Positions 2,225-20,767 of a DNA stretch of 20,767 bases are shown piece after piece (positions within the stretch are counted from its first letter, which is position 1; each line of letters begins with the position of its first letter). This DNA is from a virus. A model generated the notes under the pieces. The model did not search any database and was not told where the DNA came from. It saw only the letters and a list, made by a program, of their open reading frames with translations. The position numbers and the translations under genes are program-made. The DNA lies in the IMG/VR virus record IMGVR_UViG_3300042691_042633, positions 1-20,767 of that record. One strand, 5' to 3'.

Positions 2225-2227
2225 GTT

Positions 2228-2401: not shown

Positions 2402-4719
2402 AAAGCCTCCAACATTATTGTAAATTCAACGTCTAAGGCAGCGCTATTAGCAGTAGAAACAATCGTTACCCGTTGCCCTGTTGTGACCGTGTTAGCCGCT
2501 GTTGCTGTTACTAATTGTTCGGTAGAAGTGACGCTAACCGCACTTAGTCCGGTCACGTTCGTTCCGTTAATTTGAATAGCCCAAGCACAAGTTCCTGACG
2601 CTGATTTTACCCTCAAGTTAAGGATTTTGTAGGAACGATCTGGTTTAAACAAAGGATAGGTTTTGTTGGCAATTGTTTCAATAAATCCACCGTAGGGAAA
2701 TATATTGGCGTAAATTGTAGGGAATGTTTCTAAGCTTCCATCCCCCCGCAAATATTGGCTAGTTGTGCCGGTGGGATTGTCTAACTTACCTGCTAACGCC
2801 GTATTAATGTCATCAAGTTCCGTTTGCAAATCTTCCTGATCTGCCAACGTCCCCCCAATACCACCCCAGTCAACACCTGAAGCGGAAACAATCACAAAAT
2901 CAGTCAGTGATTGACCCGTTCCGGCTGGGTTGGTAACGACGATTTTCCCCGTTGTTGTGCTTGCCCCCACGATCGCCGTTAAAGTCAAGTCATTTACTAC
3001 GGTTAAGCCGGTCATAGCAACGCCGTCAATTGTGACACCTGTGGCCCCGGTAAATTTTGACCCGACAATCGTAATTGTGGAACCGATCGCCCCTTGGGAT
3101 GGGGAAAAACTCAGGACTTTAGGTAAGTTGGCATAGGGATCGGATGGCAGGTTTATGGGGGGCGGGGGAGTGGCCGGGGTTGGTTGTCCGCCATAGGAAA
3201 TATTGATCGCCGTGCCGTTGGTGATTCCGCCGCCAATAGTCGGGGTGACAGTTCCGGTGGTGGTGTTGACGGTGTAATCTGTACCAACGACAAACAAATT
3301 GCCAAGATTGTCATAAACCGAGACAGCATAGATATTTTGTTGAGCCAGGGCGATCGGGGTTCCTTGGGTAGCAGTGGCGGTTTCCCCTTGGGCGGCAACG
3401 GCGGTGTATTGGTTGTTGTAAATCGTGGAATCATAGGCATAGGCTTCGATTTCAATAACCCCATTGGCCCCATGATTGAGGCGTTTAATTTGCAAAAATT
3501 GGGGATCGCCGTCTCGGAATTCACAGTTGATTACGTCCCCCGCTTCCAAACCGCAATACCGCCCCAACACCGAAAATTTATAGGTTCGCCGTCGTTGCCA
3601 GGCCAATAACAAAATTCGATTAGCAATGTTCAACGCTTCGGTTTCTGTCAACGTCAGGTTAGATAGATCAACCTCCTCAATGTTTTTGTTCTCACTTAAA
3701 ACGATCTCAAAACTAACCTTTTCCCCTGGTAGATAGTCGTTGTTGAAATCCGAAAACTTGATCCGTACTTGGGTGGGAAGCTGGGCAATGTCTTGGTCAA
3801 TCTCCTCAGTGAAAACATCCCCCCGTTCACTGCCATCTTCCCGCCCTGCCATTTGGCTACGGGAAAAGTACACGCTAGAAGTTGGCCTGTTTTGTTTGAT
3901 AAATTTTAGGGATTCCCCGGTATCTACGACTTCAAAGTTGTAAGCCCATTGCAATTGGGTCAGCTTGTCCGCCACGGTGGAGGGGTAGGCGACAAAGCCC
4001 CTGACTGACACGGTGTCTAGTTCTGTGGTGTCAAATTGATCGGAAGTGTACCCAGCTTTTTCTAAAATCTTGCCGATGATTTCACCCAAATAAATCGGAT
4101 TACCACTGGCATGGGTATCGATCGCCGCTTCGAGATCGGGATAACGAGAATTGAAAAGGTTGCCATCTGAGTTGTTGAGGCGTAGGCGTTTGATGGCGGA
4201 ATAACAGCGGCCATGGTAGGCGATTTGGTTAGACCCCATAAAGTTGAGGGTGGGGTCGGAACTGGTTTGATCGCCGTAATAGTTGGCCACTTCCAACCCT
4301 GCAAACCGGCCCCAATAGGTTCCCAATATTCCATCAACCGAACCGTTTGAGTAGTAAAGCTCACGGTTAAACCAGATTTTTTTAACTTCCTGCCCGTCGT
4401 CTAGCGGTGGATTGGCCGCCCAGAGTACGCCCAAATTTCCGTAATAGATATAGGTCAGGATTGTTTCTCTGGCAACGGGGTCAAAATAATCATCCCGTTC
4501 CCAATCCGGCGGAACTTGGGCAGCAACATAAATCCCCCGGACTCTCACCTTGCCGTAAATATCAGGGATGTTTTCCCCGTAGGCGGAGTTGGGATAGTCA
4601 AAATTTTCAAGCCGGTTAACCTCTCGCTGGGTAACGGGCTTGGTTTGTTTGTTGAACAGCGATAACAACGCGGATGCGCCAAAGCTGACAGCGGTGGAAA
4701 TCAGGAAGTTTGCAACCAT
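2398..4719 (-). CDS. Tail-tip/baseplate hub protein (phage-tail_3-like) with TIG domain and fibre motifs
   Basis: A large virion protein at the tail tip, the counterpart of lambda J or GTA hub proteins. It opens with a hydrophobic, Ala/Ser-rich segment (about residues 3-22), as such tip proteins often do. The hub portion around residues 210-280 carries the family-like LGEIIGKILEKAGY and a following VRGFVAYPSTVADKL...LQWAYNFEVV pattern. Residues 533-613 form an IPT/TIG immunoglobulin-like domain (FSPSQGAIGSTITIVGSKF). At 618-632 stands WGGIGGTLADQEDLQ and at 656-662 YLRGDGS, motifs shared by many phage tail fibres; a beta-rich C-terminal domain follows. The gene heads a leftward three-gene operon, opposite in strand to the DUF2460 gene. 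The start shows only a weak G-rich ribosome site. Confidence 0.75.
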   Translation of the reverse strand: MVANFLISTAVSFGASALLSLFNKQTKPVTQREVNRLENFDYPNSAYGENIPDIYGKVRVRGIYVAAQVPPDWERDDYFDPVARETILTYIYYGNLGVLWAANPPLDDGQEVKKIWFNRELYYSNGSVDGILGTYWGRFAGLEVANYYGDQTSSDPTLNFMGSNQIAYHGRCYSAIKRLRLNNSDGNLFNSRYPDLEAAIDTHASGNPIYLGEIIGKILEKAGYTSDQFDTTELDTVSVRGFVAYPSTVADKLTQLQWAYNFEVVDTGESLKFIKQNRPTSSVYFSRSQMAGREDGSERGDVFTEEIDQDIAQLPTQVRIKFSDFNNDYLPGEKVSFEIVLSENKNIEEVDLSNLTLTETEALNIANRILLLAWQRRRTYKFSVLGRYCGLEAGDVINCEFRDGDPQFLQIKRLNHGANGVIEIEAYAYDSTIYNNQYTAVAAQGETATATQGTPIALAQQNIYAVSVYDNLGNLFVVGTDYTVNTTTGTVTPTIGGGITNGTAINISYGGQPTPATPPPPINLPSDPYANLPKVLSFSPSQGAIGSTITIVGSKFTGATGVTIDGVAMTGLTVVNDLTLTAIVGASTTTGKIVVTNPAGTGQSLTDFVIVSASGVDWGGIGGTLADQEDLQTELDDINTALAGKLDNPTGTTSQYLRGDGSLETFPTIYANIFPYGGFIETIANKTYPLFKPDRSYKILNLRVKSASGTCAWAIQINGTNVTGLSAVSVTSTEQLVTATAANTVTTGQRVTIVSTANSAALDVEFTIMLEAL

Positions 4720-4740
4720 GCCCCAACCCTAAACTTGTAC

Positions 4741-4772
4741 AAAAAATCCCGACCAAACGGCGATCGGGTTTT
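4741..4772 (-). terminator. Terminator-like hairpin downstream of integrase
   Basis: CCCGA (4748-4752) pairs with TCGGG (4764-4768) around an 11-base loop. Read leftward, the second arm is followed by A then six T residues, the usual form of an intrinsic terminator; read rightward it is followed by only four T. It would end the integrase transcript. It sits only 23 bases before the tail-tip start codon, so it could instead act in that gene's leader. Confidence 0.45.
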
Positions 4773-4850
4773 GATGTCGTGCTTTAGTTAAACCTTGCCT
4801 CAGTCCCCATCTTAGCTTTTTCCCTAATGCTTCCCTAAATAGTTTTTGGT

Positions 4851-4870
4851 TTTGGTAGATTTTGGTAGAT
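4851..4870. repeat. Tandem 10-bp repeat TTTGGTAGAT x2
   Basis: Two perfect head-to-tail copies of TTTGGTAGAT, preceded by a partial copy (TTTTTGGT at 4843-4850). They lie in the integrase-proximal gap and might be integrase or accessory-factor sites; that role is a guess from position. Confidence 0.5.
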
Positions 4871-4945
4871 TTATCTCCCACTAAAAGCCTTGATTTTGTT
4901 AGGTTTTACGGTGGTTTCAGGTTTTCGGATGTTGCCGATCAACGC

Positions 4946-4984
4946 ATAGGCACTCTGTCTAGGGTGACTCTGAATCGTGCCTAT
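4946..4984. repeat. 8-bp inverted repeat ATAGGCAC/GTGCCTAT
   Basis: ATAGGCAC at 4946-4953 and its exact reverse complement at 4977-4984 are separated by 23 bases. They could form a hairpin or mark protein-binding sites near attP. The arms are too far apart to be a standard tyrosine-recombinase core with a 6-8 bp overlap. Confidence 0.5.
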
Positions 4985-5018
4985 CTAAAGGGTTTTGGCT
5001 TCTGCCATTTTGCTTTGC

Positions 5019-6059
5019 CTAAATCTTCCCTAGTATTTTCCCCATGCTGATCTCGTCGATATAGCTGTGGTAGTGGCGATAGTGAATCTCTATGCCGTGG
5101 CCCATCAACCGAGAGGCGATCGCCGAATCAACTCCCTTCAGGGCACATCGGACGGCGAAGGCATCCCGCAATCCGTAGGCGGTGAATCCTAGCTTGAAGG
5201 GTCTGAAGCCGCTACAGATTCTTGATCCTAGGTCTTTGTTGGTTTCGGTTCCTTTTAGTTGGAAGTTTGGCCAATGGCGATCGCCTAAGTCAAACAATTC
5301 CACCCAATCGGATGGAACGGGCCAGACTTTTCGGGAACCTGTTTTGGTGTCTTCGTGGGTGGCGATGATGGGGAATTGGCTTAGGTCTAGTTGGAATAGT
5401 TCATGGGGGCGGAGTCCATAAGTGGCCAGGATTCCGGCGATCCAACGCCATCCTTTGTTGTCTATTTTTTGCAGAGCTTTTATGATTTCGGCATCACTGG
5501 GAACGTGCCTTTTTTTGGCTTTCCATTTCCCTCTCAATGGTGCAAATTCTTTAGGCCAATCGAGTTTATGCAGGTCGGACAGAGCTTTGTAGGCTTGATA
5601 GGCGTGTTTTCGGTAGAAGCTATCAACGTCAAATTTCAATAATGTCTCTTTTATAACGGCGATAGTGAAGGGTTCATCCTGGGGCAGGTAGTCAAAATAA
5701 CGCTGGTAGTGGCTCCGGTATCCGTCTTCTGTGGTGGCGTTTTTGGGTCTGGTTTCCCAGAAGTATTTTTCATATTCGGCGATCGCGGTTTCACAATTAT
5801 TTTTTATGTCTAAGGCTGATTGTGGTGTCCAGTCTATCCAATCAAAACGGTCAAATATCAAGTCGCTTTCCAATCTTTGCGCTTTGCCGAATGCGGATTT
5901 AATGCCTTGGTCTGTGGCGGGGCATCCGGTTTTAATTTCGTGTTGTTTCCATGCGCCTTCCCCATTTTTGGGCGGCAGTGTGGCCCGCAAATATAACCGG
6001 CTTCCCTTCTGTCGGATTTTTACTCTGTCTAGTTTGGCGTTATGGCGATCGAGGGTCAT
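5019..6059 (-). CDS. int: Tyrosine recombinase integrase
   Basis: Site-specific integrase that would recombine phage attP with a host attB. The catalytic pattern is visible: Arg217 in ATYGLRPHEL, a Lys in the beta-hairpin TKTGSRKVW (239-246), the second box YGLRDAFAVRC (295-305) with Tyr295 in place of the usual His and Arg298 present, His321 in LMGHG, and the likely nucleophile Tyr330 in RHYHSYI. The N-terminal 180 residues form the arm/core-binding part, with a basic start. Length of 346 residues is normal. The ATG overlaps the stop of the preceding HTH gene (ATGA), so the two form one leftward operon, and a terminator-like hairpin lies beyond its end. The fold and remaining catalytic residues support an active enzyme despite the His-to-Tyr change, which is seen in some relatives. 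Confidence 0.9.
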   Translation of the reverse strand: MTLDRHNAKLDRVKIRQKGSRLYLRATLPPKNGEGAWKQHEIKTGCPATDQGIKSAFGKAQRLESDLIFDRFDWIDWTPQSALDIKNNCETAIAEYEKYFWETRPKNATTEDGYRSHYQRYFDYLPQDEPFTIAVIKETLLKFDVDSFYRKHAYQAYKALSDLHKLDWPKEFAPLRGKWKAKKRHVPSDAEIIKALQKIDNKGWRWIAGILATYGLRPHELFQLDLSQFPIIATHEDTKTGSRKVWPVPSDWVELFDLGDRHWPNFQLKGTETNKDLGSRICSGFRPFKLGFTAYGLRDAFAVRCALKGVDSAIASRLMGHGIEIHYRHYHSYIDEISMGKILGKI

Positions 6060-6340
6060 TGATATTTTCCGCCGCTCTCACACACGGCTAGACGGCGATC
6101 GGGTTCAGCATCATGAGAAAAAAAGACAGAATCGCCACTCTTGTATACCAACCAAAAATAATCCTTGGCCACCGGGGGCAATGCGTTGATCAGCTTGTCC
6201 ACTTTTTTGTACCCGCTGTCAGTTTTGCCGTTCAGGAATCGAGACACGTCTGATTCTGCAACGCCACTAGACCGCGAAATATCAACCGCTCGAATATTGA
6301 ATTTTTGAATCGTGAGCTTAAAAGCCCGGCTCATGTCCAT
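6056..6340 (-). CDS. Small XRE-like HTH regulator co-transcribed with integrase
   Basis: A 94-residue DNA-binding protein. Residues about 7-55 fit an XRE/Cro-type five-helix domain: FNIRAVDISRSSGVAESDVSRFLNG places the recognition helix around VAESDVSRFLN. A short, less helical tail follows. It is divergent from the 80-aa HTH gene, with a shared control region of 117 bp between them, and is coupled to int by a four-base overlap. It is the best candidate for the lysogenic repressor, although it is short and lacks an obvious self-cleavage (LexA/S24) domain, which fits a system released by the antirepressor downstream. A role as integration or excision accessory factor is the alternative. Confidence 0.7.
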   Translation of the reverse strand: MDMSRAFKLTIQKFNIRAVDISRSSGVAESDVSRFLNGKTDSGYKKVDKLINALPPVAKDYFWLVYKSGDSVFFSHDAEPDRRLAVCESGGKYQ

Positions 6341-6457: not shown

Positions 6458-6700
6458 ATGATAGTTAATTTCCAAGAGGCTAAATTGTCTGAATTGGAGT
6501 CTGTGACAGGGATTCCAAGTGAAATGTGGTGTCGCTGGTTTGCTGGGTATTACTCGATCTCAGGAAAATCCTTGTCAAAGGCCGCGAATGCACTCGGAGT
6601 AAGCACATCCACGCTTTTAGATCAAATCGAGAAGCGAAAACTCCTAAAGCAAGACATCGAGAAGCGAAAACTCCTAAAGCAAGACACAGTAAGCAATTAA
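6458..6700 (+). CDS. Small Cro/XRE-like regulator with duplicated basic tail
   Basis: An 80-residue protein divergent from the int operon. Residues 9-56 look like a small XRE-type domain: LSELESVTGIPSEMWCRWF followed by LSKAANALGVSTSTLLDQI, a pattern common in cyanobacterial and phage regulators. The C-terminus consists of IEKRKLLKQD repeated twice (residues 57-76), from a perfect 30-bp tandem duplication; it is strongly basic and could extend a DNA-contacting or dimerising helix. AGAGG lies seven bases before the ATG. By position it is the Cro-like partner of the 94-aa regulator, and the first gene of the rightward early transcript. A separate promoter/operator follows it, so it may be expressed apart from the antirepressor. 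Confidence 0.7.
   Translation: MIVNFQEAKLSELESVTGIPSEMWCRWFAGYYSISGKSLSKAANALGVSTSTLLDQIEKRKLLKQDIEKRKLLKQDTVSN
6626..6685 (+). repeat. Perfect 2 x 30-bp in-frame tandem duplication
   Basis: Copies at 6626-6655 and 6656-6685 are identical at all 30 positions, beginning ATCGAGAAGCG and ending AAAGCAAGAC. Because the unit is a multiple of three, it adds ten residues without shifting the frame of the regulator gene. Lack of any difference between copies points to a recent event. Confidence 0.95.
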
Positions 6701-6791: not shown

Positions 6792-7688
6792 GTGAAATTT
6801 GAACAGTTCAAGGAAAAGGCGATCGCCGAATTACGCCACGGCAAATCGATGACGGTATCAGACCTAATCAAGGTAACGGGGGCGGCAAGTGGTAGTGCTT
6901 ACCGTTGGGCCAATATGATGACGGATTCGGGCGTTGTGCTTAACGATGGTGGTTTTATCCGTTTAACCCCATCTGCTACTCAGTCAGAATTATTTGATGT
7001 CGATCCGTCCGCAATTGCGGACACTTCCCAACCCATTACAGATGTCCCCATTGTTGAGGTAGTTGATGAAGTCCACGCCCCCAAAGAAAAGCCCATCAAT
7101 GCAACGGCGATCGCCAGTTTTGCTTATAAGCAGATGGGAGAGGTTCGGACGGCAACGGTTAACGGGGAGCCTTGGTTCTGTCTAAACGATGTCTGTGAGG
7201 TATTGCTGATTGCATCCCCCCGAACTGTAGCGGCTCGATTAGATACAGATGAGAAAGGTTACGTCTGTCTGACCGACGCAATGGGACGGGAACGAGAAAC
7301 GACCTTTATTAATGAATCTGGACTTTATTCCGTAATCCTACGCAGTGACAAGCCAGAAGCAAAGCCGTTCCGTAAATGGGTCACGTCTGAAGTATTGCCT
7401 GCCATCCGCAAAACAGGCCGCTATGAGCCGGAGCCACAGAAACCACTAAGTCAGCTTGAAATGTTAGCGGCGATCGCCCAAGAGGCAGTCAAAAACGAAA
7501 AGCGGTTAGATGCGGTGGAGTTGGAAGTTAATGCTTTGAAAGAGCGGCGACTAAAGGCAGAAAAAAAACTGAACCTCTTACCATCTGCCAGTGTGCCAGC
7601 CGTGCCGAAAAGTACAAGGGCGATGATCAATGAGCGAGTCGCGGCGTACAGTGCGGCTGGAAATGGATCGCCGTTTTGTAGGGGCTGA
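6792..7688 (+). CDS. BRO-N phage antirepressor, C-terminus apparently truncated
   Basis: Antirepressor-type protein, thought in this family to bind or displace the repressor and favour lytic growth. Residues 1-60 resemble a winged helix (TVSDLIKVTGAASGSAYRWA). Residues about 106-211 are a BRO-N domain: VNGEPWFCLNDVCEVL, FINESGLYSVILRS and FRKWVTSEVLPAIRKTGRY. A helical segment follows (218-262), then STRAMINERVAAYSAA, which looks like the opening of the C-terminal domain seen in cyanobacterial antirepressors. The frame then ends eight to nine residues later, where a methyltransferase-like fragment begins in another frame, so the C-terminal domain seems lost. Start is GTG, with GAGG about ten bases upstream and an operator-covered promoter further up. 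Overlaps the remnant at 7630. Confidence 0.8.
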   Translation: MKFEQFKEKAIAELRHGKSMTVSDLIKVTGAASGSAYRWANMMTDSGVVLNDGGFIRLTPSATQSELFDVDPSAIADTSQPITDVPIVEVVDEVHAPKEKPINATAIASFAYKQMGEVRTATVNGEPWFCLNDVCEVLLIASPRTVAARLDTDEKGYVCLTDAMGRERETTFINESGLYSVILRSDKPEAKPFRKWVTSEVLPAIRKTGRYEPEPQKPLSQLEMLAAIAQEAVKNEKRLDAVELEVNALKERRLKAEKKLNLLPSASVPAVPKSTRAMINERVAAYSAAGNGSPFCRG

Positions 7689-9396: not shown

Positions 9397-11022
9397 ATGC
9401 AAGTCAGACACATTTCAACGACTAAACCAGAAGATCCAAACCTCACCCCAGAGGGATTGATCGCCTATATCGCCCGCGTCTCTTCCCCCAACCAAGAAAA
9501 CCCCGACTATGCCCAACTTTTGCGCTATTGCATCCGCGAAAAACATTGGTCAATTTTTGAAATGGTTGACATGACCGTCGAAATTATTACCACCAGGGCG
9601 ATCGCCCCCCAGATTTTGCGCCACAAAAGCTTTTGTTTCCAAGAATTCTGCATTTCTGGTGATTCCCTAATAACGACAGTGGCGATATGTGGGCGAACCA
9701 AAAAGATCCCAATCAAAAAACTTTATGAATACCAGTTCGACCCAAGGATGCAAGTCGTTTGGGACAAAGGCGTCAGAGTATTTGATGGATTTACCCAGAC
9801 TTTTATTCGGGCAACAATCAAAGAAATTTTCAAAACTGGAGTAAAGCCAGTTTATGAAGTCACCTTGTCTGATGGCAAAAAAATCAAGTCAACACTTGAT
9901 CACAAGTTTTTATCCCGACATGGTTTTGTCCGATTAGAAAGTTTGGCAGTGGGGGACTTTATCGCCGTTAACGGAATTCCTGTCTATCAATCCAAAGATT
10001 GGTTATCACAAGCAAAACAAGAATCTATCGACGATAAAACTGGATTACAGGGAATTGCTGACAAGGCTGGCTGTTCCTATCACACCATACGAAAATGGCT
10101 AAAAATTCATCAATTACAATTTACAAAGAAGGAGGTCGCCCAATTTACTGAAGCATGGAATAAGGGCTTGCCATCCGAAGAACAGCCTATGTATGGAAAG
10201 GTTGTGCCGCCGGAAATTCGGAAAAAAATGAGCCGAAGTTCGCGCCGAGGGACTGATTCCAACCTTTACAAAAATGGAAATTCTACCAATCGATCATTCC
10301 GCCAAGAAATATACAAATGGCAAAACAAGTATAAAAACTACTTGTTAAAGAAATTTGATGAGCAGTGTCAGCATTGTTATTCCACGAAAAATCTTCAAAT
10401 AGACCACATTAAAAATGTCTCTCTTTACCCAGAATTGGCATTTGATTTAGACAACCTACAAATTCTTTGTGTTGATTGTCATAAGTCAAAAAGTAAGGAT
10501 GAAACGACAAAGGCAAAACAAACTGCTACTTGGAAGCGGATTGAATCTATTTCATTTGTAGGGGAAGAAGAAACCTACGACATAGAAGTTAATCACGACT
10601 CTCATAATTACGTTGCCAATGGTGTGATTGTTCATAATTCCCAACGGTATGCCGAAGCGATGGATTTTGAACCCTGTGAAGCCCGTCGCCAGGATCTGAA
10701 AAACCGCCAAAACTCCATTGATGACTTGCCTTTTGAGGTCAAGGAAGACTTTCTGTTTTACCAATACATAGTCTGGGATTTTGCCTATGCCCGCTATCAA
10801 GAGGCGATCGCCGCTGGTGTGGCCAAGGAATGCGCCCGGATGTTGTTACCCCTCAACACTAAAACCCGGATGTATATGAAAGGCTCGGTGCGGAGTTGGA
10901 TACATTACCTCGAAGTCCGCTGTCATCCCTCAACCCAAAAAGAACACCGCGATATTGCCCTGGCGATCAAAGAAATTTTCATCGCCCAATTCCCCACCGT
11001 ATCCGAAGCCCTCGATTACTAA
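9397..11022 (+). CDS. thyX: Flavin-dependent thymidylate synthase ThyX interrupted by an intein
   Basis: Makes dTMP from dUMP using methylene-tetrahydrofolate and FAD. The extein is residues 1-84 plus 415-541, 211 residues after splicing, a normal ThyX size. The ThyX signature is rebuilt across the splice: [10 protein letters not shown] joined to SQRY, where RHR is the usual start and Lys replaces the third residue. Near the C-terminus ARMLLPLNT and [10 protein letters not shown] are further family motifs. The intein (residues 85-414) has its own entry. The gene lies seven bases after the methyltransferase in the nucleotide/DNA-modification part of the early operon. Without splicing the signature loop is split and the enzyme should be inactive. 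Confidence 0.92.
9649..10638 (+). mobile_element. HNH-endonuclease intein in thyX (330 aa)
   Basis: A self-splicing protein insert from Cys85 to Asn414 of the precursor. Block A is [10 protein letters not shown]; block B spans [15 protein letters not shown] to STLDH (the TxxH pair Thr166/His169); block F is [20 protein letters not shown]; the end is VHN followed by Ser415 as the +1 nucleophile. The centre carries a helix-turn-helix ([20 protein letters not shown], 215-234), a NUMOD-like basic part and an HNH homing endonuclease: CQHC, IDH at 335-337, then [13 protein letters not shown]. The block is A-rich and contains no GCGATCGC, while both flanks do, which suggests later arrival. All splicing residues are present, so I expect it to be active. 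Confidence 0.92.
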
Positions 11023-12488: not shown

Positions 12489-12834
12489 TCCCTATTTCTC
12501 TTACTACGCCAAATCGTCTAATCCCCCCCTATGGAAAAGCCGCAAAGAACGCCGCAAATCCCTTGAAGTAAAAGCCTTTGATGTTCGTGCATTGGCGATC
12601 GCCAAACGGGAATGTCAATTGATCGAATTTATCCAAGCCCACCCAGGCTATAACGCCAGCGAATTGGCCAAGAACTTGAAGTTTTGCCAACAGTGGACGA
12701 ACAAAACCCTGCGCTCTCTCCAGGCTGATGACCTTGTTTATTCCAAGTCCTCTCCAACCGGCGATCGGTGGTATTTGGTCAGCGTTGATAAATCTACGAT
12801 GGCGATCGCCGCTAAGGAGGAAAGCCATGAATAA
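12472..12834 (+). CDS. Winged-helix DNA-binding protein (120 aa)
   Basis: A basic N-terminal stretch (WKSRKERRKSLEVKAF) precedes a winged helix at about 45-103: QLIEFIQAHPGYNASELAKNL, then TNKTLRSLQADDLVYS, then a wing GDRWYLVSV. The pattern resembles MarR/ArsR-like folds used by phage regulators. GGAGG lies seven bases before the ATG within the preceding gene. The end overlaps the replication gene by eight bases, and the GGAGG near 12816-12821 in its last codons serves that gene, so the two are translationally linked. Specific function unknown. Confidence 0.55.
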   Translation: MPKLPSPYFSYYAKSSNPPLWKSRKERRKSLEVKAFDVRALAIAKRECQLIEFIQAHPGYNASELAKNLKFCQQWTNKTLRSLQADDLVYSKSSPTGDRWYLVSVDKSTMAIAAKEESHE

Positions 12835-13753
12835 AAAAAGTTTACTTGCCGCTTTGCAACGCCCGATCGCCTTTCACAAAATCTTTGCCCAAATATCAGG
12901 CAGTGTGACATCAGGGCTGTTTTTATCCCAGCTTTTTTACTGGCACGACAAAGGCAGCGACCCCGACGGATGGATCTACAAGAACTATCGGGAATGGGAA
13001 GACGAAACCACCATGACCCGACGGGAATTGGACACCGCCCGCAAACGACTAAAGGCGATCGCCGTCATTGAGGAAAAGAAAGCATGCGCTCCGGCCAAGC
13101 TGTTTTATCGCATTGACTTTGACAGACTGATCACCCTGATCAATGAGTTTGAACCATCGTCAGTGACAAACAAGGATGGCGATAGTGTGCAAACTAGCTT
13201 GGCGCATTCCGCCAAACTGCAATGTACGATTCCGCCAAACTCTCTTATATATACAGAGATTACTTCAGAGACTACATCATCAGGAGGAAAGGCAAAAAAT
13301 CCTGATGATGATGCGGATGTAGTCATTGCCGAACAACCAAAGCCCGATCCCTTTTTCACTGGACAACATCGGGCGATCGCCAGGGAAATCGTAAAAGTAT
13401 CCAGGGAATTCAACGCCCCGAAAAATTTTATAACCGATGCGCCTTGGGGCCAATTAGCGGATGAAGTCGGCAAAGACCCGTTAGGCGTTTGGAAAGCGTT
13501 TGAACAATTCATGACCCAGCTTCACGCTGACAAACAAGACCCGATCGCCTATTGCGGGAAAATCGCCAATAACCTCTACCAGAATCCTGGATCTGAATTG
13601 GCCTGCAAGCCTTGGATTGAATTTGCTGACTATTTCCGAAAAAATCTTACTGCGCCGCCCGCGCCGAAAAAATCCGAACCCCGCCCCGTCGAAATCGAAC
13701 AGATACCCGACCGAGAAGCATCAAGGGAAGCGTTTAGGAGGCTAAAAGGATGA
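12827..13753 (+). CDS. Putative phage replication initiator/helicase-loader protein
   Basis: 308 residues from the ATG at 12827, chosen because TAAGGAGG stands just upstream; a longer frame from 12728 would lie in the previous gene. Residues 15-100 form a winged-helix region typical of phage replication proteins: ISGSVTSGLFLSQLFYWHDK, GWIYKNYREWEDETTMTRRE, then ARKRLKAIAVIEE. An acidic linker (NPDDDADVV) separates a C-terminal helical domain (about 200-285). It is directly followed by dnaB with an ATGA overlap, the usual order of initiator or loader then helicase. The origin is often inside such a gene, but I see no iteron array. Function is inferred from fold pattern and context. Confidence 0.6.
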   Translation: MNKKSLLAALQRPIAFHKIFAQISGSVTSGLFLSQLFYWHDKGSDPDGWIYKNYREWEDETTMTRRELDTARKRLKAIAVIEEKKACAPAKLFYRIDFDRLITLINEFEPSSVTNKDGDSVQTSLAHSAKLQCTIPPNSLIYTEITSETTSSGGKAKNPDDDADVVIAEQPKPDPFFTGQHRAIAREIVKVSREFNAPKNFITDAPWGQLADEVGKDPLGVWKAFEQFMTQLHADKQDPIAYCGKIANNLYQNPGSELACKPWIEFADYFRKNLTAPPAPKKSEPRPVEIEQIPDREASREAFRRLKG

Positions 13754-15048
13754 ATCGCACACCTCCCCATAACATCGAGGCAGAAGAGGCGATTTTAGGC
13801 GGGATTCTACTTGACCCCCCGGCGATCGCCAAAGTCACCATCCCAACCGAGTCCTTTTACGTTGCTGCCCATCAGACAATCTTTGCCGCCATGCAGAAAT
13901 TGTCCGTCGAACAAAAGCCCGTTGATCTAATACACCTAACCGAATCCTTGGGCGATGACCTAACGGCGATCGGGGGACTGCCCAAGCTGATCAATTTATC
14001 CGATGCCGCTATTTCAACTATCAACATTGACCGCTATGCCGAATTAGTCCGCCAAAAATGGCAACGGCGCAAACTAATCAAAGTCCTCAACGACCTATTA
14101 GAACAATCCTACGACCCGGCTTGCACTTGGGATGAACTCAAAAACAAAGCCGAAAACGAGTTAACCACCGCTGTTTCTTCCTCCTCAAACGGCGATCGGG
14201 GCTTAGTCCACGTTTCCGAAACCCTGCTAGAGATTTACAACCAACTCGAAAGCGGCACAAATCCCGGCATTTCTACTCAACTCGGATACTTTGACCAATG
14301 CTTAGGCGGGGGAATGCGAGGCGGGGAATTGATTGTCGTGGCCGGACGGCCCGCCATGGGCAAATCGTTTGTCGCCACCTACCTAACTCGCACCTTTGCC
14401 GACCATGGACCCGTTGCCTTGTTTTCCCTGGAAATGGACAGGGCAAGCATTGTCAAGAGGTTGGCATCCGCCGAAGCGGGCTTGAAACAATCCTGGTTGA
14501 CGGCCAACGCTCTACCCCCCGACAAAATAACGACCTTTTTAGATGCCTACTCTCGCATGGCAGCATTGCCGATCTATGTCGATGACATCCCCGGTTCGGA
14601 ATGTTCCCCCGCCTGGCTTCAATCTGAATGCAACCGCATCTATCGCAAGCACGAAAAACTAAGCCTGATTGTGGTGGACTACCTCCAATTAATCGGCGAT
14701 CAGGGTAGTGCGAACCGGGTCAACGAATTAGGCCGTTACACTTCGGCACTTAAATCCCTTGCCAAGCGTTTTGACTGTCCTGTTATTGCTCTTTCCCAGT
14801 TATCTCGCGGGGTGGAATCTCGCAATGATAAACGCCCAATTATGTCGGACATCCGATCAAGCGGGGCGATCGAGCAGGATGCCGATGTAATTGTGATGCT
14901 TTACCGCGATGAGTATTACAAACCTGATACCCCAGACCAAGGAATTTTAGAGTTAATTCTTGCCAAAAATCGACACGGTAAATGCGCCACCGCTAAGGCT
15001 GAATTTGACCCCGAAATCGGCACTATCAAACCCTATCAAAACTATTAA
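13750..15048 (+). CDS. dnaB: Replicative DNA helicase DnaB
   Basis: Hexameric ATP-driven helicase that unwinds DNA 5' to 3' ahead of the replication fork. The N-terminal collar is clear (PPHNIEAEEAILGGILLDP, residues 5-23, and VDLIHLTESL). After a linker comes the RecA-like core: Walker A GRPAMGKS (199-206), ALFSLEM, Walker B LIVVDYLQLI (306-315), IALSQLSRGVE and the arginine-finger part IRSSGAIEQDADVIVMLYRD. At 432 residues it is full length and intein-free. AGGAGG precedes the start, which overlaps the loader gene's stop. Phage ownership, rather than a host gene, follows from its neighbours. Confidence 0.95.
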   Translation: MNRTPPHNIEAEEAILGGILLDPPAIAKVTIPTESFYVAAHQTIFAAMQKLSVEQKPVDLIHLTESLGDDLTAIGGLPKLINLSDAAISTINIDRYAELVRQKWQRRKLIKVLNDLLEQSYDPACTWDELKNKAENELTTAVSSSSNGDRGLVHVSETLLEIYNQLESGTNPGISTQLGYFDQCLGGGMRGGELIVVAGRPAMGKSFVATYLTRTFADHGPVALFSLEMDRASIVKRLASAEAGLKQSWLTANALPPDKITTFLDAYSRMAALPIYVDDIPGSECSPAWLQSECNRIYRKHEKLSLIVVDYLQLIGDQGSANRVNELGRYTSALKSLAKRFDCPVIALSQLSRGVESRNDKRPIMSDIRSSGAIEQDADVIVMLYRDEYYKPDTPDQGILELILAKNRHGKCATAKAEFDPEIGTIKPYQNY

Positions 15049-15063
15049 TTGGGAGTTTTAATC

Positions 15064-15286
15064 ATGAAACCTTACTTTCAAACTCCCTCAGTCACCCTGT
15101 ACAACCGCGAATGCTTAGCCGGTTGACGGAGTGGTTTTAGATCCCTTTTCTGGCAGTGGAACCACATTGCAAGTCGCCAAAGATTTAGGACGGAAGGCAA
15201 TAGAGTTTGAACTCAATCTCGACTATTGCCAACTCATTGCTAAACGATGCCAACAACTAACCATTTTTGATGTACTTGGAGCCTAA
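15064..15286 (+). pseudogene. Internally deleted DNA adenine/N4-cytosine methyltransferase
   Basis: The first 20 codons ([20 protein letters not shown]) resemble the usual start of phage N6/N4 DNA methyltransferases ('LYNGDCLE'). A TGA follows at 15124-15126. In the next frame, from about 15122 to 15286, comes [19 protein letters not shown], the SAM-binding motif I, then [19 protein letters not shown], the C-terminal strand and helix. The middle, including the catalytic D/NPPY region, is missing, and the halves are in different frames. A single deletion of several hundred bases with a frame change explains this. The stop abuts the next ATG, so the 3' boundary is original. A GGGAG ribosome site still precedes the ATG. 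Confidence 0.8.
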
Positions 15287-15814
15287 ATGTTAAAAATCAG
15301 ACCCAAAAAACGCAAACAAAAACGCGGCTTTGACCCCAACGTCAAGACTAAAGATCGCCAAAGATGGCGTCATGTAGCCATTGAACTAAATCAAGAAACC
15401 TGGGAAGTGATTGATGGCTTTCCTGATATGCACAATTCCGAAATCCTTGACGTACTCGAAATTCATCATCTAATCATTGCCCCCGTCAATTCCAAAGCCG
15501 ATCAAGCCCTGATCAAGCAATGGTCAGAATTAATCGCTGATTGCTACATCAGCCCCACCGAATTCCTGGCAGAAATTTACACCACAACCATCAACGATCA
15601 TGCTCTTTCCATCAATGCAAACATCGGGCGAATTTACCATAATTCCTACCTTGGGGATACCCGACTAAGACCTAATTCAATCGGACACATCTTCGAGGCT
15701 GGCGATCATGGTTGTTTTCCCGACCCCGTCCTGCAAATGCTCAAAAAATACGTTTTTGTCGAACATATTGCCGACGGCAACAACATCACCCTCAAAAACC
15801 GTTTAGGACTTTAA
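15287..15814 (+). CDS. Unrecognised 175-aa protein
   Basis: The ATG follows immediately on the stop of the methyltransferase remnant. The N-terminus is very basic (KIRPKKRKQKRGF), followed by a mixed alpha/beta body with WRHVAIELNQETWEVI and EILDVLEIHHLIIAP. Late residues HIFEAGDHGCFPDPVLQML are distinctive but match nothing I know. No signal peptide or membrane segment. The context, between a DNA methyltransferase and a small HTH protein, hints at DNA binding or defence evasion without proving it. Loss of the upstream methyltransferase may have put it closer to the dnaB transcript. Confidence 0.5.
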   Translation: MLKIRPKKRKQKRGFDPNVKTKDRQRWRHVAIELNQETWEVIDGFPDMHNSEILDVLEIHHLIIAPVNSKADQALIKQWSELIADCYISPTEFLAEIYTTTINDHALSINANIGRIYHNSYLGDTRLRPNSIGHIFEAGDHGCFPDPVLQMLKKYVFVEHIADGNNITLKNRLGL

Positions 15815-15816
15815 CA

Positions 15817-16119
15817 ATGAAGCAAAAATTTCCCCATCTAAGCCGGGACGATCGCCTATCCGTTGCTGTTGCATCCCGGCTGTTACGAGCCATCTATGAT
15901 GTGCCACCCAAAAAAGTAGCCAGGGCGATTGGTTATCGGGACACCTACTTTAATCAGTTTGAACGTTCCGATGGATTGACCCGATTGCCACCATCCGACG
16001 ACATTATTGAGTCGGTAGCCAAATACTTCGATCTAGAAGTTAGTCAACTGGTAAAAGTCGGCAACTGCAAAACCCCAATTAAAGCATTCTATTACCTACA
16101 AGAAATCAAAAAACTATGA
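15817..16119 (+). CDS. Small HTH-like protein (100 aa)
   Basis: Start taken at 15817, two bases after the previous stop; a longer frame from 15712 lies inside that gene. Residues about 12-80 fit an XRE-like layout: VASRLLRAIYDVPPKKVARAIGYRDTYFN (helices 1-3), then DIIESVAKYFDLEVSQLVKV, the typical last helix. It lacks any effector domain. It probably regulates transcription. Its stop overlaps the following start (ATGA). Recognition is by pattern only. Confidence 0.5.
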   Translation: MKQKFPHLSRDDRLSVAVASRLLRAIYDVPPKKVARAIGYRDTYFNQFERSDGLTRLPPSDDIIESVAKYFDLEVSQLVKVGNCKTPIKAFYYLQEIKKL

Positions 16120-16352
16120 CCCAACAAAATATGACCCCGTCTTACATAGCTAAAAAAATCATGAGCGTTGAGATTGGCGACAATTACGACAATCTAGCCA
16201 TTATTATTTGCAGTTATTTTGACGAACATCCCGATAACCCCAATAACGGCGAACTGGATTCAAGCGATTGGTGGGAAAAATGGACAATTGACCGCTACGA
16301 AGAATTCAAAGAAGCGATCAGCGATTGCATTGCGGAACATTTAGGAGATTAA
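16116..16352 (+). CDS. Strongly acidic small protein (78 aa)
   Basis: Not recognised. The sequence has about 17 Asp/Glu against five Lys/Arg, and three Trp in one cluster (SSDWWEKW). No signal or membrane segment. Small acidic phage proteins in this position are sometimes DNA mimics or inhibitors of host defence, but nothing here proves that. It is coupled to the HTH gene before it by an ATGA overlap and is followed three bases later by another small gene. Confidence 0.5.
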   Translation: MTQQNMTPSYIAKKIMSVEIGDNYDNLAIIICSYFDEHPDNPNNGELDSSDWWEKWTIDRYEEFKEAISDCIAEHLGD

Positions 16353-16355
16353 CCC

Positions 16356-16601
16356 ATGACAGACCAACAAGCCCAAGACATATTACAAACCCTAGGGCAC
16401 AACGCCCTAAAAACCATCAAAAAAGGCAATCCCGAAATAGTTAATTGTGGGCTATTCCAAGTCGTTAACTTTTGGGTCAACGGACAAGAATGTGAATACT
16501 TTTTCGATACAGAACCCCCATTGCTTAGGCAGGTGGAATCTGACAAAGAATTCACCAATTTTAACCAACTACTTTCGGAGATTACCTATGAATTGGCTTA
16601 A
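16356..16601 (+). CDS. Small acidic hypothetical protein (81 aa)
   Basis: Not recognised. Alpha-beta-alpha appearance: DQQAQDILQTLGHNALKTIKK, a beta segment GLFQVVNFWVNGQECEYFF, then FTNFNQLLSEITYEL. Two Cys (32, 46). The ATG follows the previous stop by three bases and GGAG is present upstream. Its end overlaps the NblA-like gene's start by 14 bases. An antisense frame over most of it is not credible. Confidence 0.5.
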   Translation: MTDQQAQDILQTLGHNALKTIKKGNPEIVNCGLFQVVNFWVNGQECEYFFDTEPPLLRQVESDKEFTNFNQLLSEITYELA

Positions 16602-16794
16602 GTTGTCCCTCTCTCTAGAAGAGAGTTTTGAAATCCAAAAGATTGCCACTGCCATTAATCACATGAGCAATGAGCAACGCACCGAGATTTTTAAAAAACT
16701 TGCCACGACTCAAAAGTTGCAAGAAAAGGCAATTCAACAAATGACGGCTGAACTATTCCAAAAGGAAATGACCAACCATGAACCCCGCCGCTAA
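16588..16794 (+). CDS. NblA-like phycobilisome degradation protein
   Basis: 68 residues from the ATG at 16588, with CGGAG seven bases upstream; a longer frame from 16447 has no such site and overlaps the previous gene. The sequence fits the NblA/Ycf18 family, small helical adaptors that bind phycobilisomes and bring them to Clp protease: MN start, LSLSLEESFEIQ (6-17), IATAINHMSNEQRTEIF (19-35), then KKLATTQKLQEKAIQQM. Family members have 'LSLEQxFxxxxFxxQvxxMSxEQAxxxL' in the same register and similar length. The conserved C-terminal 'LLKxxW' segment is not clear here, so affinity may differ. NblA genes occur in phages of Microcystis and Planktothrix. The stop overlaps the ParB-like gene by 17 bases. 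Confidence 0.65.
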   Translation: MNWLKLSLSLEESFEIQKIATAINHMSNEQRTEIFKKLATTQKLQEKAIQQMTAELFQKEMTNHEPRR

Positions 16795-17635
16795 TCCACC
16801 GCATTATCCATTTCAGGATGACCCGTTCGACTGGCATCCTTACGCAAACATATTTCCCTTAATGGAGGATGAAGACCTCGAAAAACTAGCCAACGACATA
16901 GAAGCAAATGGACAACTGAATCCCGTTCAAATCTATGGGGGATTAATCCTTGATGGGCGAAACCGATATAAGGCGATTGAAATCATCAATCATCGGCGAT
17001 TGGTAGAAGGCAAATCATTAATGATGTTGTCTTATGGGACTTTTGAAAAAGATGTTGACCCCGAAAACGACAACAAAGCACTATCCTATGTTCGATCTCA
17101 CAACGTCACCCGACGAAACCTAAAGCCTAGCCAACTCCATGCCATTGGCGTTGAAATTGAGGCGCATTATGCCGACATTGCCAAACGAGAAATCGAATGG
17201 AAAAAGCAAAAAGCGGATCAGGAAATCTCGGTTGTGAATTCACAACCCGGATCAATGGAGAACAAATCAGCTTACAAAGCGGCCAAAGACATCGGGACAG
17301 GTCAGCAAGGAATCAACCGAGCTAAAGCTGTTAAGGAGGCAGACCCTGAGCTATTCAACAAACTGCATAAGGGGGAAATTAGCACTAACGCCGCCTACAA
17401 CCAAGTCAAAGGCTACACAAAAAAAGAGCCGGAAGCGCCCATAGAGGAAGAATCCGACTCACAAACACTTGAAGTCACATCAGAAGAAATAATCATCTCG
17501 TTTGTTTCCAACATTGAGAGCTTATTCCCTGATGAGATTCAATACTGCCTTAATGAAATTCACAATCGCCGCCGCGATGCCGTAAAGGAATTTATCGCAA
17601 ACCTGAAAATCACTGACCCTTTACTTTTTAACTAA
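16778..17635 (+). CDS. ParB/sulfiredoxin-fold protein
   Basis: The N-terminal ParB-like domain is at about 22-125: NIFPLMEDEDLEKLANDIE, QLNPVQIYGGLILDGRNRYKA with the DGRNR nucleotide-binding loop (59-63), and the box SHNVTRRNLKPSQLHAIG. A helical region with an HTH-like AAKDIGTGQQGINRAKAV follows, then an acidic linker and a C-terminal helix bundle. Phages use such proteins as DNA-binding or CTP/ATP-binding factors and nucleases, not only for partition; no ParA gene is adjacent, so plasmid partition is not supported. It stands between the NblA-like gene and the annealase. The absence of ParA makes a regulatory or DNA-processing role more likely. Confidence 0.75.
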   Translation: MNPAANPPHYPFQDDPFDWHPYANIFPLMEDEDLEKLANDIEANGQLNPVQIYGGLILDGRNRYKAIEIINHRRLVEGKSLMMLSYGTFEKDVDPENDNKALSYVRSHNVTRRNLKPSQLHAIGVEIEAHYADIAKREIEWKKQKADQEISVVNSQPGSMENKSAYKAAKDIGTGQQGINRAKAVKEADPELFNKLHKGEISTNAAYNQVKGYTKKEPEAPIEEESDSQTLEVTSEEIIISFVSNIESLFPDEIQYCLNEIHNRRRDAVKEFIANLKITDPLLFN

Positions 17636-17637
17636 CC

Positions 17638-18351
17638 ATGAGCGCACTATCAACCATTTCGCACTTTAATCCCGAACAAACCCGCCTAATCAAGCAAACC
17701 ATCATGGCGGGGAAGTCCACACCAACCGATAACGATCTGGCTTTATTTGGTCTAATCTGCCAACGGGCAGGGCTTGACCCATTCGCCCAGCAGATTTATG
17801 CCATTGAGCGGGCTGGGAAATGGACTTTTCAAATTTCCATTGACGGATTACGAGCAATTGCCGAACGTTCTGGCCAATACGCGGGCAGTGATGAACCGCT
17901 ATTTGATGAAGGGCTTGGTGTTTATGAGTTTGAGGAGTCAGGGCGGGAAATCCCCAAGGTCTGTAAAGTCACCGTCTGGAAGATTGTACAAGGCGTTCGT
18001 TGTCCATTCGTTGGCATTGCTCGGTATTCGGAATGCTGTCAAAAATACAACGGCAAACCGTCTGGACTGTGGGAAAAAAGGCCCAGCACAATGCTAGCTG
18101 TTCGAGCTGAATCCCAGGCATTACGCAAGGCGTTCCCTCAATGCCAACAAATCGAACAATATGCCGAGGTTGAGGCCGTTGAAACCGTTGATGATTGGCG
18201 AGTTAACGGGGCAAACTGGGCAATTGAGCAAGGACTTGACCCACAAACAGCCCACGACATCAGCCAAGTGGCAACCAGCAAGCAAAACCTATTAGAACGG
18301 GTAAAATCTGCCTTAAACACAGAACAACCAAAGGCATCGCCAACCAATTAA
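17638..18351 (+). CDS. bet: Phage recombinase, Red-beta/RecT-type single-strand annealing protein
   Basis: Anneals complementary single strands during recombination-dependent replication and repair. Motifs of the Bet family: LICQRAGLDPFAQQIYAI (39-56), WTFQISIDGLRAIAERSG (62-79), and TMLAVRAESQALRKAFP (151-167). Length of 237 is normal. It starts two bases after the ParB-like stop. Lambda pairs Bet with an exonuclease (Exo); no exonuclease is recognisable in this window, so the partner may be elsewhere, a host nuclease, or one of the unknown proteins. The C-terminal 50 residues are variable, as expected for the part that contacts SSB. Confidence 0.85.
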   Translation: MSALSTISHFNPEQTRLIKQTIMAGKSTPTDNDLALFGLICQRAGLDPFAQQIYAIERAGKWTFQISIDGLRAIAERSGQYAGSDEPLFDEGLGVYEFEESGREIPKVCKVTVWKIVQGVRCPFVGIARYSECCQKYNGKPSGLWEKRPSTMLAVRAESQALRKAFPQCQQIEQYAEVEAVETVDDWRVNGANWAIEQGLDPQTAHDISQVATSKQNLLERVKSALNTEQPKASPTN

Positions 18352-18381
18352 AATAGGATCAGCAATATTGTGGGGGCAATC

Positions 18382-18678
18382 ATGCAAGGATTTGAAGCTC
18401 AATACGATTCATTACTTCGCAACTATGGCCGTGACTGTGCAGAACGCTATCGTCAGGTCATCCACGGTCAACCCCCACAACATTCCACCCGGCAACGCTG
18501 GACAAGCAACCGACTCCATCGCCAACGAACTTTTAATGAGATGCAGGCAGCAATAATCAGAAGCGATTACAGCGCAGGCTACACTTGCCGACAGTTGGCA
18601 CAAAAATATGGTGTATCACAAGGTTCAATTAGCAACGTTGTCAAAGAACGGGGAGCATATAAGGGCGAAAAGTCCTGA
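18382..18678 (+). CDS. Small HTH protein upstream of terminase (98 aa)
   Basis: ATG at 18382 chosen because GGGGG is seven bases upstream; in-frame GTG at 18370 is possible. The C-terminal half holds a resolvase/Hin-like helix-turn-helix: YSAGYTCRQLAQKYGVSQGSISNVVKERGAY (about 63-93, given as a pattern of three helices). The N-terminal half is basic (RQRWTSNRLHRQR). Sitting last in the early block and just before the terminase promoter, it may be the late-gene activator. A sequence-specific terminase helper is the alternative. Confidence 0.6.
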   Translation: MQGFEAQYDSLLRNYGRDCAERYRQVIHGQPPQHSTRQRWTSNRLHRQRTFNEMQAAIIRSDYSAGYTCRQLAQKYGVSQGSISNVVKERGAYKGEKS

Positions 18679-18726
18679 TAAAATAGTTAATCCACGGGTC
18701 CCTTTAAAAAGTGGACGTTAGCCGTG

Positions 18727-18756
18727 TCGGCATCCCTCGCATTTCGTAGGTATAAT
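18727..18756 (+). promoter_or_regulatory. Promoter before the terminase operon
   Basis: A perfect TATAAT at 18751-18756 lies 26 bases before the terminase small-subunit ATG. TCGGCA at 18727-18732, 18 bases upstream, matches the -35 consensus at four of six positions, so this promoter may need an activator. It fits the switch from early to packaging genes. The rest of the 104-bp gap holds an imperfect stem near 18698-18718. Confidence 0.5.
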
Positions 18757-18782
18757 GTACGTATTTTTAGGTTATTATTACA

Positions 18783-19322
18783 ATGCCAAACCAAGGGACT
18801 GATTACGGGGAACGATACTTGAGCGGGTCAAACTTGATCGACCTTTACGGGGACAGGGTTAAACTTCCAACCGTTAATAAGTGGGTTGAGTCGGGGAAGG
18901 TCAGCACCGATTCGGATGGGCGGCGAAATGAGCAGCAGGTATTGATCGCGTTGCTGGATGCCAAAGACGCAGAAATTGAACGACAAAAATCATTGAAAAC
19001 AGTCGGCGATTTAAGAGAGGAGATTGATAAAGCAAAACTGCGAAAAATCCTGCTAGAAGGCGACATCATTGAACTACAGAGGGACAAAGAAAAAGGCGAG
19101 TTGATTCGGCTGGATGAGGCAATCATTGAAAGGAAGGATACAGACACAAGGATCAAACAAAAACTTTTGTCTTTACCTTCGAGGATTTCTTTGGAATTAT
19201 CAGGGATCAGTGACCCGATAGAGATACAGAAAATTTTAGACGAATTTGTCCGAGAGTTGTTGCTTGAGTTGCACACAGAACTTTATGGGGGGAGCGATGA
19301 AAAAGAAAATTGTCGTGGGTAG
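18783..19322 (+). CDS. Terminase small subunit candidate (Nu1-like, 179 aa)
   Basis: By position it is the DNA-recognition subunit of terminase. The N-terminus looks like a winged helix selecting DNA: NLIDLYGDRVKLPTVNKWVESGKV, the 'YGxxxxTVxxWxxxG' pattern of Nu1-type proteins. Residues about 60-125 are heptad-like coiled coil (LREEIDKAKLRKILLEGDIIE and onward), giving oligomerisation, and the C-terminal helix (FVRELLLELHTELY) may bind the large subunit. The stop overlaps the large subunit gene by 26 bases. The promoter at 18751 is directly upstream. No clear ribosome site. Confidence 0.7.
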   Translation: MPNQGTDYGERYLSGSNLIDLYGDRVKLPTVNKWVESGKVSTDSDGRRNEQQVLIALLDAKDAEIERQKSLKTVGDLREEIDKAKLRKILLEGDIIELQRDKEKGELIRLDEAIIERKDTDTRIKQKLLSLPSRISLELSGISDPIEIQKILDEFVRELLLELHTELYGGSDEKENCRG

Positions 19323-20767
19323 TTTCTTACCACCTCCAAAACTAAACCCAGCAGAATGGGCGGAATCAAACGTCGTTATTCCTAAAGAGTCTGGATCTGA
19401 GCCTGGGTTTTACCGCATCCGTCGCGCACCGTATCAGAGAGGGATTATTGAATCAATCACTGAATATAGAAAAATTGTTGTGATGTCCTCTGCTCAGGTT
19501 GGAAAAACACTGATGCAGACTATTGCGTTGGGGTATTGGATTGATCAGGAACCTAGCCAAATCCTGTGGGTAGCCCCAACAATCCAAATGGCAGAAAGTA
19601 CAAGCAAGGAAAAATTAAGCCCGTTTTTTAGGGACACGCCAAAACTATCTGCTTTGATAGACGAAAAAAGCAGATCATCGGGAAACACGATATTAAGAAA
19701 AAACTTTCCAGGCGGTTTTTTGGTTTTAGCTGGGGCCAACTCTCCGGCAAGCTTGGCCTCTAGAAGTGTGCGAGTGTTGATATTAGATGAGTTGGATCGG
19801 TTTCCTTTGTCCGCTGGCTCGGAAGGCTGCCCATATAAGTTAGCCGCAAAAAGAACAGCCGCATTTTTTAATAGTGTCGAGTTTCTTGTTTCCACTCCAA
19901 CCCTATCCGGGTCATCAAAAATAACAAAGGAGTTTGAACTATCCAATCAACAGCATTTCTATCTGCCTTGCCCCCACTGTGGGCACTATCAGCATTTGAT
20001 TTGGGATCAGTTGCAGTATGTCGGCAAGGGCACGAAGGAAGCCAAGTTAGGGGATGGGGACTCGCTGGGTTATTTCTGTGCAGGATGTGGGGACTTGATC
20101 GTCGAAACGGAAAAAATGGGGATGCTTCGGAAGGGTGAATGGCGGGCTCATCGGGAAAGCAGGACGGCGGGATTTCACCTAAACGAGCTTTATTCACCGT
20201 TCCGATCCTGGCGGGATGTGGCGAGGGATTTTGAGGAGGCTAGACTTGACCAATCAACCTATCAGGTATGGTGGAATACTTCCCTGGGTTTGCCGTTTGA
20301 GTTGGCCGGGCGGACTCGTTACCGTTGGGAGGATTTACACGCTAGGGCGGAAAATTCTTTGTATTCCTTGGGCGAAATTCCCGAAGGGGTTCTGTTGTTG
20401 GTGGCCGGGGTGGATGTCCAGGGCGATCGCCTAGAGTGTACGTTGCTTGGTTTTGGTGAGTCTGAGGAATGTTGGTTGATCAATCATCAGCAATTTTTTG
20501 GCCAAACGTTAGAACCGGAAGTATGGGACGCATTGGAAGATTTTTTAGACCGCAAATACCCGCATCCGTTGGGGGGAACCATTGAGGTCAAGCGGGCGGC
20601 GATCGATACGGGCTTTCAAACCCAGGATATTTATCAACAGATCAGGCAACGGAAACACCGAACCCGATCCCGTTGGTTGGCCGTAAAGGGGAAGGAAGGC
20701 GATCGGGCGGCGTTATCGTCCCCAAGCAATCAGGAAATAAATTGGCGGGGGCAAAAAATCAAGCGGG
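19297..20767 (+). CDS. Terminase large subunit, GpA type, 3' partial
   Basis: ATP-driven motor and nuclease that cuts and packages phage DNA. The frame starts at ATG 19297, after GGGGGGAG, and is open to the window end (490 codons). N-terminal ATPase: RRAPYQRGI, Walker A SSAQVGKT (64-71), WVAPTIQMAE, Walker B LILDELDR (161-168), then VSTPT. A zinc-binding insert has CPHC (225-228) and CAGC (261-264), characteristic of GpA terminases of cos phages. The nuclease starts near GVDVQGDRLE (371-380), whose Asp373 is the expected metal ligand, and continues to AAIDTGFQTQDIY. The C-terminus and the portal gene lie beyond the edge. Confidence 0.92.
   Translation, partial: MKKKIVVGSFLPPPKLNPAEWAESNVVIPKESGSEPGFYRIRRAPYQRGIIESITEYRKIVVMSSAQVGKTLMQTIALGYWIDQEPSQILWVAPTIQMAESTSKEKLSPFFRDTPKLSALIDEKSRSSGNTILRKNFPGGFLVLAGANSPASLASRSVRVLILDELDRFPLSAGSEGCPYKLAAKRTAAFFNSVEFLVSTPTLSGSSKITKEFELSNQQHFYLPCPHCGHYQHLIWDQLQYVGKGTKEAKLGDGDSLGYFCAGCGDLIVETEKMGMLRKGEWRAHRESRTAGFHLNELYSPFRSWRDVARDFEEARLDQSTYQVWWNTSLGLPFELAGRTRYRWEDLHARAENSLYSLGEIPEGVLLLVAGVDVQGDRLECTLLGFGESEECWLINHQQFFGQTLEPEVWDALEDFLDRKYPHPLGGTIEVKRAAIDTGFQTQDIYQQIRQRKHRTRSRWLAVKGKEGDRAALSSPSNQEINWRGQKIKR

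Follow-up and report, generated by a model that had tools for sequence, protein, structure and literature searches.

NblA acts through two regions, of which the N-terminal one binds ClpC and the C-terminal one binds phycobiliproteins (PMC4103541; PMC7760959). Copies carried by phages can be active as well, as phage nblA bleaches Synechocystis (PMC4103541). Phage nblA is known mostly from lytic cyanophages. It is also found in marine cyanopodoviruses and cyanomyoviruses (PMC9602691), and PMC9239245 cites a marine lineage "with lysogenic potential" in connection with nblA. In the Planktothrix phage PaV-LD, nblA (ORF022L) shares the genome with an integrase (ORF018R) and DnaB (ORF007R). The range of Microcystis and Planktothrix phages given in an earlier, sequence-only reading of the DNA described here was thus too narrow, and the combination of nblA with the replication genes of a temperate phage, which it pointed out, has precedents in PaV-LD and the marine lineages. 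New, as far as the searches show, are the nblA slot of a phage group and a member of that group with a rebuilt C-terminal half. The group is integrase-bearing and was previously uncharacterised. The member is the window, which is the whole IMG/VR record IMGVR_UViG_3300042691_042633 with a length of 20,767 bases.

The phage and its host

The window encodes a temperate-type phage, as judged from an integrase, helix-turn-helix (HTH) genes on both sides of a strand switch, and a BRO gene. The integrase (5019–6059, − strand) is matched by PHROG 1 (E 3.6e-12) and has a homologue at the matching relative place in L100. No Pfam model matches it at E 0.01, and since PHROG 1 alone recognises it, it is described here as a divergent tyrosine-recombinase-like protein. 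Beside it, in a repressor-type position, lies an HTH protein (6056–6340, − strand, phrog_3642, E 1.3e-4). A second HTH regulator (6458–6700, + strand, PF01381, E 0.002; phrog_8, E 3.2e-5) opens the + strand run in a Cro-type position and is followed by a BRO-domain, antirepressor-type protein (6792–7688, + strand, PF02498, E 1.2e-24). The + strand run continues with a phage O-like replication initiation protein (12728–13753, phrog_9773, E 6.2e-35), the replicative helicase DnaB (13750–15048, PF03796, E 1.5e-72), a conserved phage protein with 175 aa and no known function, which L091, L133, and L134 also encode (15287–15814), the single-strand annealing protein RecT (17638–18351, PF03837, E 1.3e-23), and a terminase small subunit (18783–19322, phrog_57, E 6.5e-14). 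The earlier description of a temperate phage whose nblA lies among replication and recombination genes is borne out, as nblA shares its gene run with the genes for DnaB and RecT. From this gene content, early expression of the nblA-like gene may be inferred. Promoter and terminator scans of the window gave fewer matches than shuffled sequences, and transcript boundaries are therefore left unclaimed.

Highly iterated palindrome 1 (HIP1, GCGATCGC) is a marker of cyanobacterial genomes. The window contains 23 HIP1 sites, against 0.17 expected, an excess that would fit a cyanobacterial host. The sites are dense over the rest of the window and absent from 403–5116 and from 13829–20423, the latter containing the nblA slot; the HIP1-free stretches possibly reflect a mosaic origin of the modules. 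The searches yielded no host genome. Among 390 Cyanobacteriia genomes, the RecT of the window found one distant match (52% over 164 residues) that lacks an adjoining nblA, and among plasmids distant matches only. The L091 RecT found no match in 386 genomes of the cyanobacterial phylum, and the DnaB of the window found in genome contigs only distant bacterial matches and one Anabaena fragment.

Further upstream on the + strand, the thymidylate synthase gene thyX (9397–11022) is split by an intein that contains an HNH endonuclease (Pfam Thy1, Intein_splicing, and HNH). Judged from the intein-free ThyX of L091 (8214–8870), the intein is placed directly ahead of the conserved S-x-R-Y in the active-site motif.

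An nblA slot in related phages

The nblA-like ORF (16588–16794 with its stop codon, + strand) starts with ATG and encodes a protein of 68 aa, MNWLKLSLSLEESFEIQKIATAINHMSNEQRTEIFKKLATTQKLQEKAIQQMTAELFQKEMTNHEPRR. The frame lies exactly where the sequence-only reading had placed it and contains both motifs quoted there, LSLSLEESFEIQ (residues 6–17) and INHMSNEQ (residues 23–30). A Shine-Dalgarno-like GGAG (16577–16580, + strand) is located 7 nt 5′ of the start codon, within the end of the upstream gene. The first 14 nt of the ORF overlap this preceding gene, its last 17 nt overlap the ParB-like gene that follows, and its GC3 resembles that of the neighboring genes. It is a genuine gene.

Relatives of the phage were reached via RecT. 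PF04485 (NblA) genes are present in L002 (61.2 bits), L003 (53.8 bits), and L091 (48.2 bits), and a purpose-built NblA profile identifies a clear NblA in L133. In each of the four, nblA lies directly 3′ of a homologue of the 16356–16601 gene of the window, and the sequence of L134 ends just within an nblA gene. Gene order in the window and L091 is 81-aa gene–nblA–parB–recT, and in L002, L003, and L133 nblA is followed by recT without parB. L136 and L137 have parB–recT with no nblA in the slot. In all of them, the next gene of the slot begins at or near an equal position. In most of them a GGAGG inside the last part of the preceding gene stands before this start, the relatives having either GGAGG or a similar site there, and in L136 and L137 the same GGAGG precedes parB. 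As nblA is absent from the slot in some relatives and present in others, it is an accessory gene with a fixed slot. The ORF of the window occupies the nblA slot of this phage group, and this position is the strongest evidence for its identity as NblA.

The upstream edge of the slot is formed by the conserved 81-aa protein (16356–16601, + strand), which shares 53–58% identity with its homologues in four relatives, where the range of lengths is 81–89 aa. It has no Pfam and no PHROG match. Every slot-bearing relative keeps the pattern FWxxGxECEYxxxTxPxLLxQVExxKEF in this protein, and the coding end of the gene is the ribosome-binding site of the following gene. The downstream edge is a ParB-like partition/nuclease-type protein of 285 aa (16778–17635, + strand, phrog_4715, E 3.6e-14) that is 47% identical to the L091 ParB over 112 aa. 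In L091, L136, and L137, this protein is about 130 aa long and comprises the N-terminal part only. Single-sequence searches with the ParB-like and the 81-aa protein returned no relatives.

Two observations concern NblA in the wider set. The family phrog_23930, annotated "unknown function", matches the NblA of L002 (3624–3782), L003 (7764–7922), and L091 (5998–6180) with E values from 7e-4 to 4e-5 and is probably a PHROG of phage NblA. In L141 (IMGVR_UViG_3300043442_001260), which has a related RecT, an NblA-like frame (2485–2679, − strand, MEELPLEKKFELQRF..., profile E 5e-4) represents a second type of divergent NblA-like protein, on the opposite strand and outside the slot.

Homology of the 68-aa protein to NblA

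Out of 24,736 Pfam models, PF04485 ranks at the top for the 68-aa protein (21.8 bits, E 2.7e-4). In the proposed HMM check, NblA is thus the best model, but the score stays under the curated cut-off of 25 bits. Weak matches to further helical families were also obtained, for example FliG_M (E 0.0016). Because of the sub-cut-off score and these weak matches, additional homology tests were applied. A phmmer search of 177,635 PDB sequences returned NblA as the best (1OJH, E 0.0027) and the next match (3CS5, E 0.34). A profile was built from 33 distinct NblAs of cyanobacterial genomes, with no phage members. The 68-aa protein scores 20.5 bits against it, a value reached by none of 20,000 shuffles (maximum 14.0), and unrelated frames of the window score at most 4.2 bits. 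Smith-Waterman Z values rise to 9.6 (an Anabaena NblA), and hhalign aligns the protein with NblA over 50 ungapped columns (probability 90%, E 1.4e-6). A profile of the syntenic sibling NblAs counts against reading the protein as an NblA adaptor, as it gives 8.7 bits, a score that 57 of 20,000 shuffles reach.

The AlphaFold2 model (pLDDT 82) places helices at residues 10–24 and 28–63, and the sibling NblA of L002 (P0004) is modeled with helices at 6–20 and 24–52 in the same register. The monomer is thus predicted to be an NblA-type helix-loop-helix with both helices placed confidently, which is the fold that the earlier reading had anticipated. Foldseek found no NblA in the PDB for the 68-aa protein. 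It also found none for P0004, a certain NblA that served as positive control, and its silence is therefore uninformative.

It could be argued that the slot holds a small helical protein with no relation to NblA, and that the resemblance is due to chance. The PF04485 score under the cut-off, the weak matches to other helical models, an identity of only 24% to the syntenic siblings, and the empty Foldseek result would all fit such a protein. The shuffle, phmmer, hhalign, and Smith-Waterman tests nevertheless all favor NblA, the helix boundaries agree with those of the sibling, the slot of four relatives holds a clear NblA, and Foldseek misses P0004 as well. A chance resemblance is accordingly considered very unlikely, and homology of the 68-aa protein to NblA is very probable. 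The homology claimed by the sequence-only reading is thereby upheld by the sub-threshold PF04485 match, the PDB sequence matches, the helix-loop-helix model, and the NblAs at the same slot in relatives. Since the protein falls short of both the cut-off and the C-terminal feature of the family, it is filed as a divergent NblA-like variant and not as a certified PF04485 member.

Divergence from the sibling NblAs

The nearest relatives of the window are L002 and L003, to which RecT is 72–73%, DnaB 60–70% (70% to L003), and the upstream protein 53–55% identical. Against this range of 53–73% for the neighboring genes, the NblA of the window is only 24% identical to that of these relatives. Sibling NblAs are mutually 65–79% identical, even where their RecT proteins share 56–69%. 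Searches of IMG/VR and phage records found no close relative of the 68-aa protein, which makes it a singleton at close range. Several chromosomal NblAs (maximum Z 9.6) align with it better than the siblings do (Z 3.4–4.4). This higher similarity, read from the alignments, would fit a replacement by a different NblA, and rapid divergence in place is a possible alternative. In an NblA tree, the protein sits on an extreme branch, and neither its grouping with the siblings nor that with chromosomal NblAs is rejected (p-AU 0.50 each). The data agree with either origin.

An accessory gene under relaxed constraint might also be decaying and functionless. That L136 and L137 have the slot without nblA indicates that this phage type can do without the gene, and the very rapid divergence beside conserved neighbors points in the same direction. 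A decaying gene, however, would hardly be expected to keep a full-length frame, a good ribosome-binding site, both overlaps, and a neighbor-like GC3, nor would both helices be predicted with confidence and the N-terminal conserved positions be retained. Decay is thus held to be very unlikely.

N- and C-terminal halves

The divergence is distributed unevenly along the protein. Conserved positions were defined on host NblAs, and the 68-aa protein was compared with 33 host and 6 other phage NblAs. In the N-terminal half, 10 of the 21 conserved positions are identical and 14 similar, which lies within the range of the other phage NblAs (9–12 identical, 12–17 similar). The N-terminal segment LSLEQxF...MSxEQA is present, but with A30 replaced by R. 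In the C-terminal half, 2 of 16 conserved positions are identical and 4 similar, compared to 3–7 and 8–11 in the six other phage NblAs. As the minimum among the 33 host NblAs is 3 identical positions, the protein falls below all of them. An altered C-terminal segment had been noted before and is confirmed here, with IQQMTAELF in place of YxxLLKxxW and just these two conserved positions left. In register, Leu51, Lys53, and Trp56 of NblA correspond to M52, A54, and F57. We take Leu51 and Lys53 to be functional residues, and the roles of the other residues follow reviews.

LLKxxW is also missing from many chromosomal NblAs and from the NblA of PaV-LD, which is reported to bleach Synechocystis nonetheless (PMC4103541). 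Loss of this motif alone is therefore no sign of a new target. What sets the 68-aa protein apart is the broader erosion of its C-terminal half beyond LLKxxW.

This erosion would be explained if the protein were a retargeted or interfering NblA, in which the ClpC-docking N-terminal half is kept and the C-terminal half no longer meets the usual phycobiliprotein surface. Such a protein would deliver another substrate to ClpC, or would compete or heterodimerise with the host NblA and thereby block or tune phycobilisome breakdown. An N-terminal half conserved on par with other phage NblAs next to a C-terminal half below all those compared speaks for it, as does the NblA1/NblA2 heterodimer reported from Synechocystis (title of Baier et al. 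2014, cited in PMC7966870). On the other hand, NblA C termini are variable, the NblA of PaV-LD reportedly bleaches without LLKxxW, and F57 aligns with the usual Trp and M52 with Leu51, so that a hydrophobic face could persist. Retargeting or interference is hence possible but unlikely. The more specific scenario, in which the rebuilt substrate half sends Clp to a new target or blocks the host NblA and so protects the antenna during replication, is regarded as slightly less likely still.

Proposed function

The reading that we prefer, with a probability somewhat above even, is that the gene of the window encodes a highly divergent, accessory NblA homologue that acts as ClpC adaptor on the phycobilisome. 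For an ordinary phycobilisome-degrading role of the adaptor taken by itself, the chances are about even or slightly better. Its slot, flanked by the 81-aa gene on one side and parB/recT on the other within the rightward run of replication and recombination genes, would be translation-coupled, and the protein would be made during phage replication. It may dimerise in an NblA-like manner, into a four-helix bundle, by itself or with the host NblA. Its N-terminal segment would dock to ClpC, and its long second helix may contact the phycobilisome. ClpCP could then degrade phycobiliproteins, which would lower light capture and free amino acids during replication.

A kept N-terminal half combined with an unrecognisable C-terminal half in one member of the group offers a natural contrast for testing which NblA residues pick the substrate. 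The same contrast bears on whether phages retarget the Clp protease of their host.

Comparison with known NblA systems

Cyanobacterial NblAs (PF04485, e.g., 1OJH from Anabaena PCC 7120) and the protein of the window are alike in their length of about 60 aa and their helix-loop-helix fold. Both share the N-terminal LSLExxF...MSxEQ in an ungapped alignment of about 50 columns. They differ in that the protein of the window carries E for Q11, R for the nearly invariant A30, and IQQMTAELF for the C-terminal YxxLLKxxW, and scores below the Pfam cut-off. With the NblAs of L002, L003, L091, and L133, it has in common the slot, the upstream gene, the start point, and a downstream RecT. It is only 19–28% identical to these siblings, which score high against PF04485 or an NblA profile.

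The phages Ma-LMM01 and MaMV-DC of Microcystis resemble the window in that their NblAs are phage-borne and have diverged from the host NblA. Unlike the window, they are lytic myoviruses in which nblA adjoins nrdA and the C-terminal W is kept. PaV-LD resembles the window in combining nblA with an integrase and in encoding DnaB, a ParB-like protein, and an antirepressor. Its DnaB is the best phage match to the DnaB of the window (40%), and its NblA, too, is without LLKxxW. The nblA of PaV-LD differs from that of the window in its place in the gene order, on the opposite strand and beside a thymidylate kinase gene, in a better conserved C-terminal half, and in its reported bleaching.
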